Assembly (NCBI RefSeq): GCF_019711395.1
Contig: NZ_JAIGNL010000002.1
Span: forward strand, 787,001 to 851,000
Length of the DNA stretch: 64,000 bases
Source: Qipengyuania xiapuensis
GTDB lineage: Bacteria; Pseudomonadota; Alphaproteobacteria; Sphingomonadales; Sphingomonadaceae
Direction of reading: 5' to 3'
This document shows positions 11,256-56,554 of the stretch, in pieces. Each line of letters begins with the position of its first letter. The first letter of the stretch is position 1. The translations under genes and the position numbers were made by a program. A model generated the notes under the pieces. That model made no database searches, was not told the origin of the DNA, and was given only the letters and a program-made list of their open reading frames with translations.

Positions 11256-12710
11256 ATGGCGCTCGGTCCGAGGCTAGACCTACGGCAAACGCAATCGCTG
11301 GTGATGACGCCGCAGCTCCAGCAGGCGATCAAGCTGCTGGCGCTGTCCAATCTCGAGATCGAGACCTTCGTGGCCGATGCGCTCGAGAGCAATCCGCTGC
11401 TCGAGATCGGAGAGGTCCGACACGAAAAGGGCGAGGATACAGGCGAGTCGCAGCCATCGGAGCACGAGGCGACCCCCGATTTCGACGGCGAGTCCGCGCT
11501 CGATATCGCCGAATATGCCCGCACCACCGACGCCGCTCCCGGCGACAGCGGCGACTGGGCGCAGACACCGGGCAGCGGCGGCGCGATCGATGGCCTGCCC
11601 GACCTCGAGAACCGATCCAGCGACGGGCCGAGCCTCGCAGAACACCTGTCCGATCAGATCGGCGCCCTGTCCTATTCTCCAGGCGAGGCGATCATTGCCA
11701 ACCGTATCGTCCACGAGCTCGACGAGGCAGGCTATCTCCATACTTCCCTGCGCGACCTTGCCGACGACCTCGGCGCGCCGCTGGTCGAAGTCGAGGATGC
11801 ACTCGAACTGGTCCAGTCGCTCGACCCGACCGGTGTCGGTGCGCGTTCCTTGCAGGAGTGCCTCAAGCTGCAGGCCAAGGAGGCCGACCGCTACGATCCG
11901 TGCATGGCGCGGCTCATAGAGAACCTCGACCTCCTCGCGAGCGGCGACATCGCGCGCCTCCGGCGGCTGTGCGAAGTCGACGAGGAAGATTTCGCCGACA
12001 TGCTCGCCGAGCTGAGGGGGTACGATCCCAAGCCGGGGTGCCGCTATGGCGGCGAGAGCGAGGCGGCGATCGTGCCGGATGTCCTCGTTTCGCCTTCCGA
12101 TGGTGGCGGCTGGCAGATCCGCATCAACGAAGCGAGCCTGCCCCGCCTCGTGGTCAACCGCGAGTATTACGTCGAGCTGGAAGCGGGGGCGCGCGACAAG
12201 GCCTCACGTGCCTGGCTGAACGAACAGCTGGGCGAGGCCGACTGGCTGATCCGTGCGCTGGACCAGCGCCAGAAGACGATTCTCAAGACTGCGAGCGAGA
12301 TCGTTACGCTGCAGGAAGGTTTCTTCCGCGAGGGCGTTTCGGCAATGCGCCCGCTCACACTGCGCGAAGTGGCCGAGAAGATCGAGATGCACGAATCGAC
12401 GGTCAGCCGCGTCACCAGCAATAAATATCTCTCCTGCCCGCGCGGGACCTTCGAAATGAAGTATTTCTTCTCCAGCGGGGTTGCGGCAGCGGGCGGTGAA
12501 GGCGCGAGCAGCGAGGCGATCAAGGCGCGCATCAGGTCCCTGTGCGATGCGGAGGACCCCAAGAAAGTCCTGTCCGACCAGAAACTTGCCGATCTCCTTA
12601 ACGAGGAGGGCTTCGACCTCGCTCGCAGGACGGTGGCAAAATATCGCGAGGCGATCGGCATCGGATCGAGCGCGCAAAGGCGCCGCGAGAAGAAGCTACG
12701 TAACATTTGA
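11256..12710 (+). CDS. rpoN: RNA polymerase sigma-54 factor
   Basis: The 484-residue protein has the Gln-rich region I (RLDLRQTQSLVMTPQLQQAI) that contacts activators, an acidic linker at about 50-115, the core-binding domain, and the C-terminal RpoN box ARRTVAKYRE (about residues 456-465) that recognises the -24 element. It directs transcription dependent on enhancer-binding ATPases. It follows lptB closely. Downstream the usual hpf and ptsN genes are absent; ctrA follows instead. The last 13 coding bases include a sequence (12695-12707) that recurs upstream of the receiver gene at 13791. Confidence 0.96.
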   Translation: MALGPRLDLRQTQSLVMTPQLQQAIKLLALSNLEIETFVADALESNPLLEIGEVRHEKGEDTGESQPSEHEATPDFDGESALDIAEYARTTDAAPGDSGDWAQTPGSGGAIDGLPDLENRSSDGPSLAEHLSDQIGALSYSPGEAIIANRIVHELDEAGYLHTSLRDLADDLGAPLVEVEDALELVQSLDPTGVGARSLQECLKLQAKEADRYDPCMARLIENLDLLASGDIARLRRLCEVDEEDFADMLAELRGYDPKPGCRYGGESEAAIVPDVLVSPSDGGGWQIRINEASLPRLVVNREYYVELEAGARDKASRAWLNEQLGEADWLIRALDQRQKTILKTASEIVTLQEGFFREGVSAMRPLTLREVAEKIEMHESTVSRVTSNKYLSCPRGTFEMKYFFSSGVAAAGGEGASSEAIKARIRSLCDAEDPKKVLSDQKLADLLNEEGFDLARRTVAKYREAIGIGSSAQRRREKKLRNI

Positions 12711-45328: not shown

Positions 45329-45823
45329 ATGGCCGGACAACGCCGCGCTTACAAGGAGATGCGCCCGCAATTCCGCGAAGGGGAAAACGGCCGGGTTTCG
45401 ACCAAGTGGCGCTCGCTATTCCTCGACTATCTCGCCGAGACATCGAATGTCACCGAAGCCGCGAAGCGCTGCGGCGCCAATCCGAGCAGGGCGTACAAGC
45501 TGCGCCGGACCGATCCCGAGTTCACACGCCAGTGGCGCGACGCATTGCTGGAAGGATACGAGCATCTCGAACTCGAAACCTTGCGCCGCCTTCGCGAGGG
45601 CGTTCCGCCGGACGGCCCCAAGTTCGATATTGCCAATGCGCTGAGGCTCCTTGCGCTTCACCGCGAAACCGTCGCCCGCGAGCGCGCCAAGATCGAGAAC
45701 AGCGATGAGGCCAGCGTGCTCGCCTCGCTCAACCGCAAGCTCGAGGCGATGCGGCAGAACGAGCTTGCTCTGGCCGGCAGGAAACGGGCCAAACCGGACG
45801 GGGCGCATGAAGCTGGCGCCTGA
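45329..45823 (+). CDS. GTA small-terminase-like protein (g1 type)
   Basis: The 164-residue protein is helix-rich with an HTH-like segment: ETSNVTEAAKRCGANPSRAY, KLRRTDPEFTRQWRDALLEG and EHLELETLRRLREG, typical of gp1-type packaging components of Rhodobacter-like GTAs. It precedes and overlaps terL by 17 bases. ATG at 45329 has GGGAGG 6-7 bases upstream; a longer frame to 45206 exists without similarity. It is intact, although the downstream GTA head genes are lost. Confidence 0.8.
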   Translation: MAGQRRAYKEMRPQFREGENGRVSTKWRSLFLDYLAETSNVTEAAKRCGANPSRAYKLRRTDPEFTRQWRDALLEGYEHLELETLRRLREGVPPDGPKFDIANALRLLALHRETVARERAKIENSDEASVLASLNRKLEAMRQNELALAGRKRAKPDGAHEAGA

Positions 45824-47141
45824 GTTCCTCGCGTGGCTGCGCAATCAGGACCAGGCAACGATGCGAGGCCTCATCGCAGGGCTGGAAGAGCGTGAGCGTG
45901 CGGCCATCGCCTATGACTGGTCGCTCTGGGCCCGTGCCAGCCAGCTGCCGCCGGAGGGCGACTGGTCGTGCTGGCTCGTCTGCGCAGGTCGCGGTTTCGG
46001 CAAGACCCGCATGGGCGCCAAATGGGTCCGCGAGCAGGCAATCGGCAATCCCGATGCGCATATCGCGCTCGTTGCCGCCAATTTGGGCGAAGCGCGCGCC
46101 ATCATGGTGGAGGGCGAAAGCGGGCTGCTCAACATCTGCCCGCCGATGTATCGCCCCGAGTTCGAGCCTTCGCGCCGCCGCCTCACCTGGCCCAACGGGG
46201 CAGTGGCAACGCTGTATTCGGCAGCCGAACCCGACACTTTGAGAGGACCGCAGCATTCGCATGCCTGGTGCGACGAGATCGCCAAGTGGTCCACTGCATC
46301 GGACCGCGCAACGCAGGCTTGGGACAATCTGCTCATGGGCCTGAGGCTCGGTGACGATCCGCGGATCGTCGCGACGACCACGCCGCGACCGGTGCCGCTG
46401 CTGCGCCGCCTCATGCTCGAGGAAAGCTGCGGGCTGGTGGAAGTCACGAGGGGCTCGACATTCGACAATGCCGCCAACCTCCCCGCCGCCTTCATCGGCA
46501 CGATGGACCGGCAGTTCGGCGGGTCGACACTCGGGCGACAGGAACTGGAAGGCGAGATGCTCGAGGATGTCGAGGGGGCCTTGTGGACCCGCTCGCTTCT
46601 CGAGGCCTGCCGTGCGGATACATCCGCCGAGGCTGCGGTGCGCGTGGTGGTCGGCGTCGATCCGCCTGCAAGCGCGCATGGCGATGAATGCGGGATCGTA
46701 GTCTGCGCTCTCGACGAGGCAGGCGAAGGCCGAGTGCTGGCCGATTGTTCGCTCGGCCCCGCCTCGCCCGAACGCTGGGCGCGCGCAGTCGCCGAAGCTG
46801 CCGCCGCCTGGAACGCCGACCGCGTGGTGGCGGAAGCGAACCAGGGCGGCGCGATGGTGGCAAGCGTGCTGCGCGCCGCCGACGTCTCGCTGCCCCTGAA
46901 GCTGGTGCACGCGAGCCGCGGCAAGGCTGCGCGCGCCGAACCGGTCGCCGCGCTCTACGAAGCCGGGCGGGTTCGCCATGCCGGCATGTTCGCGAGGCTG
47001 GAGGACCAGCTCTGCGGGCTGATGGCAGGCGGCGAGTACGAGGGCCCGGGCCGTTCGCCCGACCGCGCCGACGCACTCGTCTGGGCACCTACGGAACTAA
47101 TGCTCGGCAAGGTCTCGCGGCCCAAAATTCGAAATCTCTAG
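45807..47141 (+). CDS. GTA-type large terminase (TerL)
   Basis: TerL packages DNA with an ATPase motor and a nuclease. The 444-residue protein has Walker A-like CAGRGFGKTRMGAKWV, Walker B with catalytic acid HAWCDEIAKW, and the RNase H-type nuclease with Asp in VVGVDPPASAHGDECGIVV and a C-terminal DRADALVWA. Length is normal for GTA TerL and no stop or shift interrupts it. ATG 45807 is inside the end of g1. The neighbouring portal is broken, so packaging here could only serve capsids encoded elsewhere, or the gene is a passenger. Confidence 0.92.
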   Translation: MKLAPEFLAWLRNQDQATMRGLIAGLEERERAAIAYDWSLWARASQLPPEGDWSCWLVCAGRGFGKTRMGAKWVREQAIGNPDAHIALVAANLGEARAIMVEGESGLLNICPPMYRPEFEPSRRRLTWPNGAVATLYSAAEPDTLRGPQHSHAWCDEIAKWSTASDRATQAWDNLLMGLRLGDDPRIVATTTPRPVPLLRRLMLEESCGLVEVTRGSTFDNAANLPAAFIGTMDRQFGGSTLGRQELEGEMLEDVEGALWTRSLLEACRADTSAEAAVRVVVGVDPPASAHGDECGIVVCALDEAGEGRVLADCSLGPASPERWARAVAEAAAAWNADRVVAEANQGGAMVASVLRAADVSLPLKLVHASRGKAARAEPVAALYEAGRVRHAGMFARLEDQLCGLMAGGEYEGPGRSPDRADALVWAPTELMLGKVSRPKIRNL

Positions 47142-47153
47142 CAAGGAATTCCC

Positions 47154-47687
47154 ATGTCATTCCTCTCCAGCCTCGCCACCGCCTTCAAGGGCGGAGGCCA
47201 ATCGCGCGTGCCTGTCTCGCGCGGCTTCGTCTCGCCCTGGGCGAGCGCCTTCGACGTCACACCCGCTCGCTCACCATTCGACTATTCGCGCGAAGTGGGT
47301 GAGGCCTATCTCGCCAATCCCGTTGCCCAGCGCGCGGTCCGCACCGTCGCGGAAGGGGTCGGCGGTGCGCCGATCGCCTATCCCGACGAGAGGCTCGAGC
47401 GGCTGGTCGAATGTTCGTGCGGGTCGCAACCGCTGCTGTAAGTGCTCGCCGCGCACCTCGCGCTTCATGGCAATGCCTATGTCCAGATCGTGAAGGATGC
47501 GGCGGGCGTGCCGGTCGAGCTCTATCCGCTGCGTCCCGAGCGCGTGCAGGTGGTGGCCGGAGACGATGGCTGGCCGAGCTACTCCGCGCCGCTCGATCCG
47601 GATGGCGGCAGCACTATCGATGTAGAGGCGCGAACAGCAATTTCGGAATTGATTACCCTATTGAAGGCGTTTGGGATTTTTTCCTGA
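47154..47687 (+). pseudogene. GTA portal protein remnant (nonsense codon and 3' truncation)
   Basis: The first 95 codons encode a GTA/HK97-type portal N-terminus (SPFDYSREVGEAYLANPVAQ, RAVRTVAEGVGG). A TAA at 47439-47441 interrupts it, and the same frame continues as LAAHLALHGNAYVQIVKDAA and VPVELYPLRPERVQVV, which belongs to the portal family. Similarity fades at about 47620-47640 where the sequence becomes AT-rich, so more than half of a normal ~390-residue portal is gone. No protease, capsid or tail gene follows. The call as pseudogene is firm. Confidence 0.88.
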
Positions 47688-47885: not shown

Positions 47886-49001
47886 ATGCGGAAATTCGTC
47901 ATTGGTATGGCGATGGCCTCTACGGCCCTTGCATCGCCAGCCCTAGCCCGGGACAATTCTTGGTACATCGGCGCCGAATTCGGCCCGATGATCGCCGAGG
48001 ACATGACCCTCAACGACACCTCCGACAGCCAGCCTCTCGCACCCAGCCTCGGTATCGACTACGACACCGGCACGGGCTTCGACGGTGGTGGCTTCGTCGG
48101 TTACGATTTCGGTGCATTCCGTCTCGAAGCTGAAGTCAGCTATCGCGACGCGGATCATGAAGAAGTCGCCATCGAAGGCGTGGGCAACTTCCCCGCTCTC
48201 GATGAAACCAACTCGCTCGCGTTCATGCTCAACGGCATGTTCGACTTCGGCGACGACGACGGCATCCAGGGTTACGCCGGTGCTGGTATCGGTGTTGCAC
48301 GCACCAGCGTCGAAGGCGAAATTCTCGTTCCGACGCTGAACACGAACCCGCGGATCGACGACTCGTCGAGCGACCTCGCATGGCAGCTCCTCGCTGGTAT
48401 CCGCGCTCCGCTGACCGACAACATCGACGTCGGCCTGCGCTATCGCATGTTCACCGCAGAGGACGTGACGCTGGTCGACAACTTCGGCGACGAGCGTGAA
48501 GGCAAGTGGCGCACCCACTCGATCATGGGCACGCTGAGCTACAACTTCGGAGCTCCGCCGCCGCCGCCCCCGCCGCCGCCGCCGCCGCCGCCGCCGCCTC
48601 CTCCGCCCCCGCCGCCTCCGCCGCCGCCGCCTCCGCCGCCGGCTCCGGTTTGCCAGCAGGGCCCGTACATCGTCTTCTTCAACTGGGACGAGTCGGACAT
48701 CACTCCGGAAGCGGCAACCATCCTGGACAACGCGGTTTCGGCATACGCCAACTGCGGCACGGCTTCGGTCATGCTCGCTGGCCACACCGACACCTCGGGT
48801 TCGACGCAGTACAACATGGGCCTTGCCCAGCGTCGTAACGCCTCGGTCCGTGACTACCTGACCGCCCGCGGCATCCCCGACGGCCGGATCAGCAGCGAAG
48901 CATTCGGTGAAAGCCAGCTCCGCGTCCCGACCGCAGACGGTGTCCGCGAACTTCAGAACCGTCGTGTGGAAGTCACCTACGGTCCGGGTTCGGGCATGTA
49001 A
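47886..49001 (+). CDS. OmpA-family outer membrane protein with a 29-proline linker
   Basis: The 371-residue protein starts with a signal peptide (MRKFVIGMAMASTALASPAL). Residues ~24-220 form an 8-stranded barrel (NSWYIGAEFGPM, FGAFRLEAEVSYRDA). A run of 29 prolines (residues 224-252) joins it to the C-terminal OmpA domain that binds peptidoglycan: FFNWDESDITPEA, GHTDTSGSTQYNMGLAQRR and the conserved NRRVEVTY. It probably tethers outer membrane to the wall. AAGGGGAA precedes the ATG. The long proline run would demand EF-P during translation. Followed by a strong terminator. Confidence 0.93.
   Translation: MRKFVIGMAMASTALASPALARDNSWYIGAEFGPMIAEDMTLNDTSDSQPLAPSLGIDYDTGTGFDGGGFVGYDFGAFRLEAEVSYRDADHEEVAIEGVGNFPALDETNSLAFMLNGMFDFGDDDGIQGYAGAGIGVARTSVEGEILVPTLNTNPRIDDSSSDLAWQLLAGIRAPLTDNIDVGLRYRMFTAEDVTLVDNFGDEREGKWRTHSIMGTLSYNFGAPPPPPPPPPPPPPPPPPPPPPPPPPPPPPAPVCQQGPYIVFFNWDESDITPEAATILDNAVSAYANCGTASVMLAGHTDTSGSTQYNMGLAQRRNASVRDYLTARGIPDGRISSEAFGESQLRVPTADGVRELQNRRVEVTYGPGSGM
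48555..48641 (+). repeat. 87-base proline-codon microsatellite
   Basis: All 29 codons are CCN, mostly CCG mixed with CCT and CCC. The interruptions argue against one recent slippage burst, but the tract can still vary in length between strains. Confidence 0.9.
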
Positions 49002-55762: not shown

Positions 55763-56554
55763 TTATTCGGCAGGGACCAGATTGACCGCGGAATACTTGC
55801 CGCGTCGGTCGACCTCGAGGTCGAACTCGTAACGTTCGCCCTCGTTGATGGCCGAAAGGCCCGAACGTTCGACGGCGCTGATGTGAACGAACGCGTCCGG
55901 CTGGCCGTCGTCACGCGTCAGGAAGCCGAAGCCCTTCATCGAGTTGAAGAACTTGACCGTCCCGGTCGCTTTCTCGCCAGTGAGTTCACGGCGAGGCGCT
56001 TCGCTCTTCGCTTCGACGGGAATCACGTCGCCAACGACCTGGAGATCCTGTGCGGAAACCTTGCCGCCGCGATCTACGAGGTTGAATTCCAGCTCCTGGC
56101 CTTCTGCAAGACCTTCGAGACCGGCGCGTTCCACGGCGCTGATGTGGACGAAGATATCCTCTCCGCCGCCTTCCTGCTGGATGAAACCGAAGCCCTTCTG
56201 CGAATTGAAGAACTTCACCTGGCCCTTGCCGGTGCCGACGACCTGTGCGGGCATGCGGTTACCACCGCCGCCTCCGCCGCCACGCGGGCCGCCGCCAAAG
56301 CCGCCGCCGCGATTGCCGCCGCCGAAGCCGCCGCCACCGCCGCCACGGTTTCCACCGCCGCCGCCATAGCCGCCACGGTCTCCACCGCCGAAACCACCGC
56401 GATCGCCGCCGCCGAAGCCGCCCCGGTCACCGCCTCCAAAGCCACCGCCCTGGTCAAAACCGCCGGCAGGAGGACCACCGAACGGATCGTAGCTGTCTTC
56501 GCCGATATTATCCCGCTTGTCCCGTCCGCGGCGCCGCCCTCTGTCGTAACCCAT
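55763..56554 (-). CDS. Double cold-shock-domain protein with a glycine/arginine-rich N-terminus
   Basis: Two CSDs bind single-stranded nucleic acid: residues ~110-180 ([20 protein letters not shown]) and ~195-263 ([20 protein letters not shown]), each with RNP1 and RNP2 ([28 protein letters not shown]). The N-terminus has a basic [16 protein letters not shown] and repeated [15 protein letters not shown] units, an RGG-like RNA-binding tail. Likely RNA chaperone. ATG at 56554; a TTG at 56614 is also open. A long leader (56555-56814, shared with terC) fits cold-shock regulation. Confidence 0.9.
56236..56481 (-). repeat. Glycine-codon repeat coding for GGGxRGG units
   Basis: The DNA encodes reiterated GGGDRGGF/Y and GGGNRGG units in the cold-shock protein N-terminus. 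It is a source of spurious open frames on both strands and may vary in length between strains. Confidence 0.7.

Follow-up and report, generated by a model that had tools for sequence, protein, structure and literature searches.

The window, a 64,000-nucleotide stretch of the Qipengyuania xiapuensis genome, holds at positions 45329–47687 what is very probably, from gene order and alignment to relatives, a decaying remnant of an RcGTA-like head–tail cluster that is kept at the same place in relatives. These coordinates enclose exactly the g1-like gene, terminase (TerL) and dead portal that a sequence-only reading had reported there. As a decaying GTA, the locus adds one more case to a known kind and is of modest interest; the part worth following is a junction that recurs in its relatives.

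Parts of the remnant and the deletion that joined them

All parts lie on the plus strand. The first gene (45329–45823), open in translation and encoding 164 amino acids, is a g1-like terminase small subunit: PHROG 4044 matches its last 148 residues (E 1.5e-12), there is no Pfam match, and the name comes from PHROGs alone. It shares 46% identity with the g1 of locus L165 over residues 76–200 of the latter and occupies the g1 slot of complete clusters. The TerL gene follows (45813–47141), with 442 open codons, and is of GTA type, with matches to PF03237 (E 3.2e-23) and PF17289 (E 5.5e-23) that cover both the ATPase and the RNase H-like domain; the earlier claims of a TerL free of stops and shifts, with ATPase and nuclease parts in place, thus hold. 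Next comes the 5′ part of the portal gene (47154–47579), recognized by its similarity to the portals of relatives, with 75–80% nucleotide identity in six of them and 80% to that of L163. No complete portal is left, as about 140 codons precede the deletion and an in-frame TAA (47439–47441) lies within them. Before the stop the piece has no family match in Pfam or PHROGs and was identified only through a relative's portal; after the stop it matches PHROG 12, with PF04860 just below the cut-off. The portal is therefore dead, as had been read from the letters, through a stop codon and a deletion; it is not frameshifted.

In frame with the portal piece stands the 3′ end of a DUF2793 (spike or tail-fibre) gene (47575–47687), comprising its last ~37 codons and 71% identical in nucleotides to L163, the stretch behind the gene included. 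Then follows an OmpA-family outer membrane protein gene (47886–49001; PF00691 and PF13505), which had been noted before and is not part of the GTA; an OmpA gene also follows complete clusters and adjoins, on the right, 29 of 37 loci that are intact or partly deleted. With a CRP-like regulator before it and OmpA after it, the remnant has the flanks seen in relatives, marking an orthologous slot. Within the window we found no match to protease, capsid, connector or tail genes, as had been stated, nor to g12–g15. Two CCG-type repeats in the window fall in coding sequence, one (48555–48641) as a proline-rich linker in OmpA and the other (56265–56448) as a glycine-rich segment of a cold-shock-like protein, named by eye, on the minus strand.

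In the genus, the intact cluster runs g1, TerL, portal, orfX, protease, capsid, g6, g8, major tail protein, g10, g11, g12, g13, g14, g15 and, as its last gene, DUF2793, followed by OmpA; the gene labels are ones that we take to follow RcGTA nomenclature. The window has lost everything between the two ends, so that portal codon ~140 runs in frame into the DUF2793 3′ end. In alignment to the sister genome G160 (locus L163), the portal can be followed up to 47579 and DUF2793 from 47565, and the junction (47565–47579) lies in an imperfect direct repeat of 10 nt, 9 of which are identical between the L163 portal and DUF2793. The two repeat copies are 11,445 bases apart in L163, giving a deletion of ~11.4 kb as measured on this sister genome. 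From the L163 alignment, the repeat at the join and the portal TAA, the locus reads as the product of one ordinary-looking deletion and one nonsense codon; together with the synteny with complete clusters, this bears out the suggestion that it is a leftover. Compared with the RcGTA-type cluster of Alphaproteobacteria, it keeps the order and slot of g1, TerL and portal but has lost the protease, capsid, connector, tail and g12–g15 genes, and its portal is truncated and stopped.

The ~11.4 kb from mid-portal to the DUF2793 end were removed, we suggest, by slippage or microhomology-mediated joining; the portal piece is broken by its in-frame stop. Particle production would thereby have been abolished, and TerL, which may be intact through the recency of the loss rather than through continuing use, would be next to decay.

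The intact terminase and its possible uses

Pairwise dN/dS was of no use for the window TerL, which is at most 73% identical to copies in the genus; in its closest pairs, synonymous sites are saturated. With relatives this diverged, we instead counted departures at columns conserved in 128 other aligned TerLs. The window copy departs at 1 of 128 columns conserved at ≥97% (43rd percentile of 117 intact TerLs) and at 3 columns conserved at ≥90% (9th percentile of the same 117). With departure counts this ordinary, the window TerL shows no sign of relaxation and looks as constrained as the copies in complete clusters, which in the simplest reading fits a recent deletion. One of its best-conserved positions, read by eye, carries a charge change near Walker A, which may be early decay or nothing. 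Scored in the same way, 11 TerLs from other partly deleted clusters are open, have no stops and are mostly unremarkable, the exceptions being L177 and L255 at the 91st and 96th percentile of the ≥90% columns.

The window TerL is also a mosaic whose N and C parts have different nearest relatives: g1 and TerL residues 1–153 are nearest to the alleles of G146, G170 or G171, and the remainder of TerL with the portal to those of G160, G169 or G204, with no sharp breakpoint at residue 153 or otherwise. TerL mosaics were also seen in L170, L174, L177 and L270, with best breakpoints at residues 243–266, roughly between the ATPase and nuclease domains.

The genome (2,713,266 bases in 2 contigs, given as 100% complete) was searched with the families PF03237 for terminase and PF05065 for capsid, and with TerL protein and GTA DNA. 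PF03237 matches once, as does TerL protein, and the profile search found no HK97-type capsid of PF05065. When the genome was searched as DNA with the 11.7 kb that run from portal to g15 in a complete cluster, a check that the earlier reading had called for, the portal piece and three short matches came up; the 12 candidate places scored, of 334, held no second cluster and no GTA DNA beyond this. All three short matches fall on one query stretch between g11 and g12 and represent a dispersed repeat. In L165 this stretch (12165–12443) contains pieces of ~30–270 bases that match many places in genus genomes.

That selection has preserved g1 and TerL for some separate role, such as packaging for other prophages or DNA metabolism, is improbable but is the best of the competing explanations. 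TerL is open over 442 codons without stop or frameshift and under ordinary constraint, and g1 is open too, which speaks for such a role. Open and mostly unremarkable TerLs, however, also occur in the 11 partly deleted clusters scored elsewhere, which is what deletions of mostly young age would give, and the genome lacks a PF05065 capsid partner, while the portal piece of the same block is already broken. Still less probable is an assembly error that fused the portal with DUF2793: the short repeat at the junction could invite one, but the genome is assembled in two contigs and given as complete, the portal stop codon is an independent lesion, and relatives often show losses at this cluster. Least likely of the three is that the terminase serves a GTA lying elsewhere in this genome: its sole support is the suggestion of the sequence-only reading, and against it stand a single PF03237 match, the absence of a PF05065 capsid and the failure to find other GTA DNA among the scored candidates in a 2.71-Mb genome of 100% completeness. 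The lone intact terminase most likely represents a transient stage of GTA loss and not one kept for a GTA elsewhere.

A TerL–DUF2793 junction shared by relatives

TerL has a match in 50 of 60 genus genomes and none in the other 10; by hand count, the matches comprise 33 near full length, 1 partial (27–356) and 16 with the N-terminal part only. In the family, at least 319 of 397 genomes have a TerL match, and in one set of relatives 6 of 28 genomes had no match. The best 80 of 463 IMG/VR loci are near full-length TerLs by selection and have no bearing on deleted forms. Other partial GTA deletions, with differing break points, were observed at L145, L148, L174, L177, L255, L259, L272 and L279.

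We read the loci of 50 relatives whose TerL match ends near residue 150 or is otherwise short. In 41 of these (among L140–L157, L221–L227 and L230–L250), the join links codon 153 of TerL with codon 20 of DUF2793. Spacing is identical in 37 of the 41, with 4 nucleotides between TerL codon 152 and DUF2793 codon 20 (34 found by script, and L154, L236 and L242 by eye, codon 152 being altered in the latter two); of the other four junctions, two have 1 nt more and two have 2 nt fewer. Outside the 41 are L228, L229, L234 and L245, which reach a contig end, and L145, L148, L159, L248 and L251, which have other break points or further decay. Within the genus, 14 of the 16 genomes with only the N-terminal part have the junction, 12 of them with the same spacing. 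The interval from TerL codon 153 to DUF2793 codon 20 measures 12,173–14,624 bases (median 12,883) in 29 complete clusters, in which both ends are present and lie >11 kb apart. TerL codons 1–153 contain no stop in any of the 41 remnants, and the DUF2793 part contains stops in two of them.

The window does not have this junction: it keeps the whole TerL, its own join runs from the portal to the DUF2793 end, and it is not an example of the recurrent deletion.

When the missing GTA part was sought in 22 short-TerL genomes (21 with the junction, and G141), no long match appeared among the 12 candidates scored in each. Six of the 22 carry a PF05065 capsid outside this locus; the one in G086 also has a 96-base DNA match to the GTA capsid, so that a GTA-like prophage is possible there. 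In the draft genomes G141 (L228/L372) and G291 (L234/L374), contigs end on both sides exactly at the junction, which could reflect a fork in the assembly graph if intact and deleted forms coexist. Coexistence stays a lead, because a TerL protein search of G141 found no C-terminal part.

Independent deletions or one spread allele

The same join and spacing, the scatter of remnants on rpoB and TerL trees and the lineage-native flanks suggest a recurrent, position-specific deletion in relatives. On an rpoB tree of 41 genomes, for which mostly remnants were sampled outside the genus, the 16 remnants need 10 state changes; well-supported branches force at least 9 of these, and the remnants come together in none of 200 bootstrap trees. 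There is some clustering, as shuffled labels need 12.9 changes on average and 32 of 500 shuffles are as low. For the same 16 loci, the TerL-N protein tree requires 15 changes (at least 14 forced) and the DUF2793 tree 11 (at least 6 forced). A larger TerL-N tree, made from DNA, has 169 rows and 423 columns and leaves many forks unresolved; its 41 remnant rows (39 of the 41 junction loci, L228 and L234) require 37 changes, where shuffled labels give 37.1. At least 18 of the 37 are forced, and the remnants form 40 remnant-only clades.

Close relatives can differ in state. The rpoB sister genomes G190/G170, G172/G198 and G161/G177 are of opposite state, and G188/G153 differ as judged by locus, their left flanks being 95–100% identical. 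L155 has unusual codons in common with its sister, and these reach to ~20 nt from the cut on its left side and ~8 nt on its right; by eye, groups g48, g37 and g2 keep their own residues at codons 20–21 in both states. In close pairs (L149/L160, L155/L088, L224/L175, L153/L167 and L151/L153), remnant TerL-N dN/dS is 0–0.11, which fits recent loss.

The spread of one allele by homologous recombination was considered and rejected: similarity of codons between remnants is not clearly raised near the junction (22 remnants and 89 intact loci on the left, 40 and 23 on the right), and the codon beside the cut is that of the nearest intact relative in 46% of 35 parsed junctions, compared with 16% when intact relatives are drawn at random. 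Four grounds leave some plausibility to a very short shared tract, or to one old allele that recombination has homogenized. First, against native flanks, the three closest pairs (L224/L175, L155/L172 and L149/L160) have at least one mismatch within ~8 nt to the right of the cut. Second, with residue numbers read by eye, S144 is AGC in 15 of 15 remnants with serine there versus 32 of 60 intact loci, and G147 is GGT in 7 of 19 versus 11 of 88. Third, the dinucleotide at the join matches that of the nearest relative in 41% versus 32%, a difference that is not significant (p 0.23, n = 22). Last, the dinucleotide AT, present at 21 of 112 intact TerL sites, is absent from all 35 parsed junctions.

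Several routes to the recurrent cut were tried. Repeat slippage was rejected: aligned in register, the TerL and DUF2793 sites of 15 loci are 0.21–0.25 identical and rank 60th–96th of 121 offsets. In this the recurrent junction, which has no homology in register, is unlike known short-repeat deletions; the window junction with its 10-nt imperfect repeat resembles them, as do the deletions of L145, from TerL into g10, and L279, from capsid into DUF2793, which by eye are both cut at short matching sequences. TerL codon 153 was also discarded as a general recombination hot spot, since of 20 TerL breakpoints 6 lie at 240–279 and 2 at 140–159. The joined flanks fold somewhat better than shuffled sequence (mean z −1.7 in 35 remnants, and −0.6 and −0.3 at the intact sites), but a junction hairpin was rejected, the arms of a junction pairing no better with each other than with arms exchanged between lineages. 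Across the 35 of 41 junctions parsed for the dinucleotide and codon tests, the join dinucleotide is TC in 13, CT in 12, TT in 6, AC in 2, CC in 1 and GT in 1; intact DUF2793 sites have TC or TT in 36 of 53, and intact TerL sites have CT in 74 of 112. Such a mixture might arise from a staggered cut, or from a short exchange of strands, that is resolved to one parent or the other; the non-significant match to the nearest relative and the missing TerL-type AT speak against this.

We therefore put forward only tentatively, at somewhat less than even confidence, that the GTA of the Sphingomonadaceae, taken in the GTDB sense, has been removed repeatedly and independently by a position-specific TerL153::DUF2793-20 deletion, a favoured recombination event and not random decay. 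The parent-type join dinucleotide would be as expected from a staggered cut or strand exchange, and the isolated tips on the TerL tree would look as if GTA-less lineages were short-lived, or as if producers and non-producers formed a standing polymorphism within species.

Pseudogenized and lost GTA clusters are known in Alphaproteobacteria, and the consulted portion of PMC10883770 discusses cheaters that are proposed to arise and to be restrained by population structure. The window locus resembles those lineages in having lost GTA genes that relatives keep; it differs in that the event is resolved to the nucleotide. In relatives one junction recurs, on which that portion of the paper is silent. 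An excerpt of PMC9836097, citing earlier work, describes GTA genes as conserved, though to differing degrees, in roughly half of Rhizobiales, Sphingomonadales and Caulobacterales members. No shared GTA deletion junction was seen in the titles or abstract openings of the literature searched, and prior publication is possible.

The persistence of costly GTAs is an open question: in the model of PMC6209664, as given in the part consulted, recombination benefits alone cannot pay for lysis. A single, easily typed junction that arises again and again would mark GTA-negative cells in cultures and in nature, and such a direct marker for counting them would make the question of GTA persistence testable.
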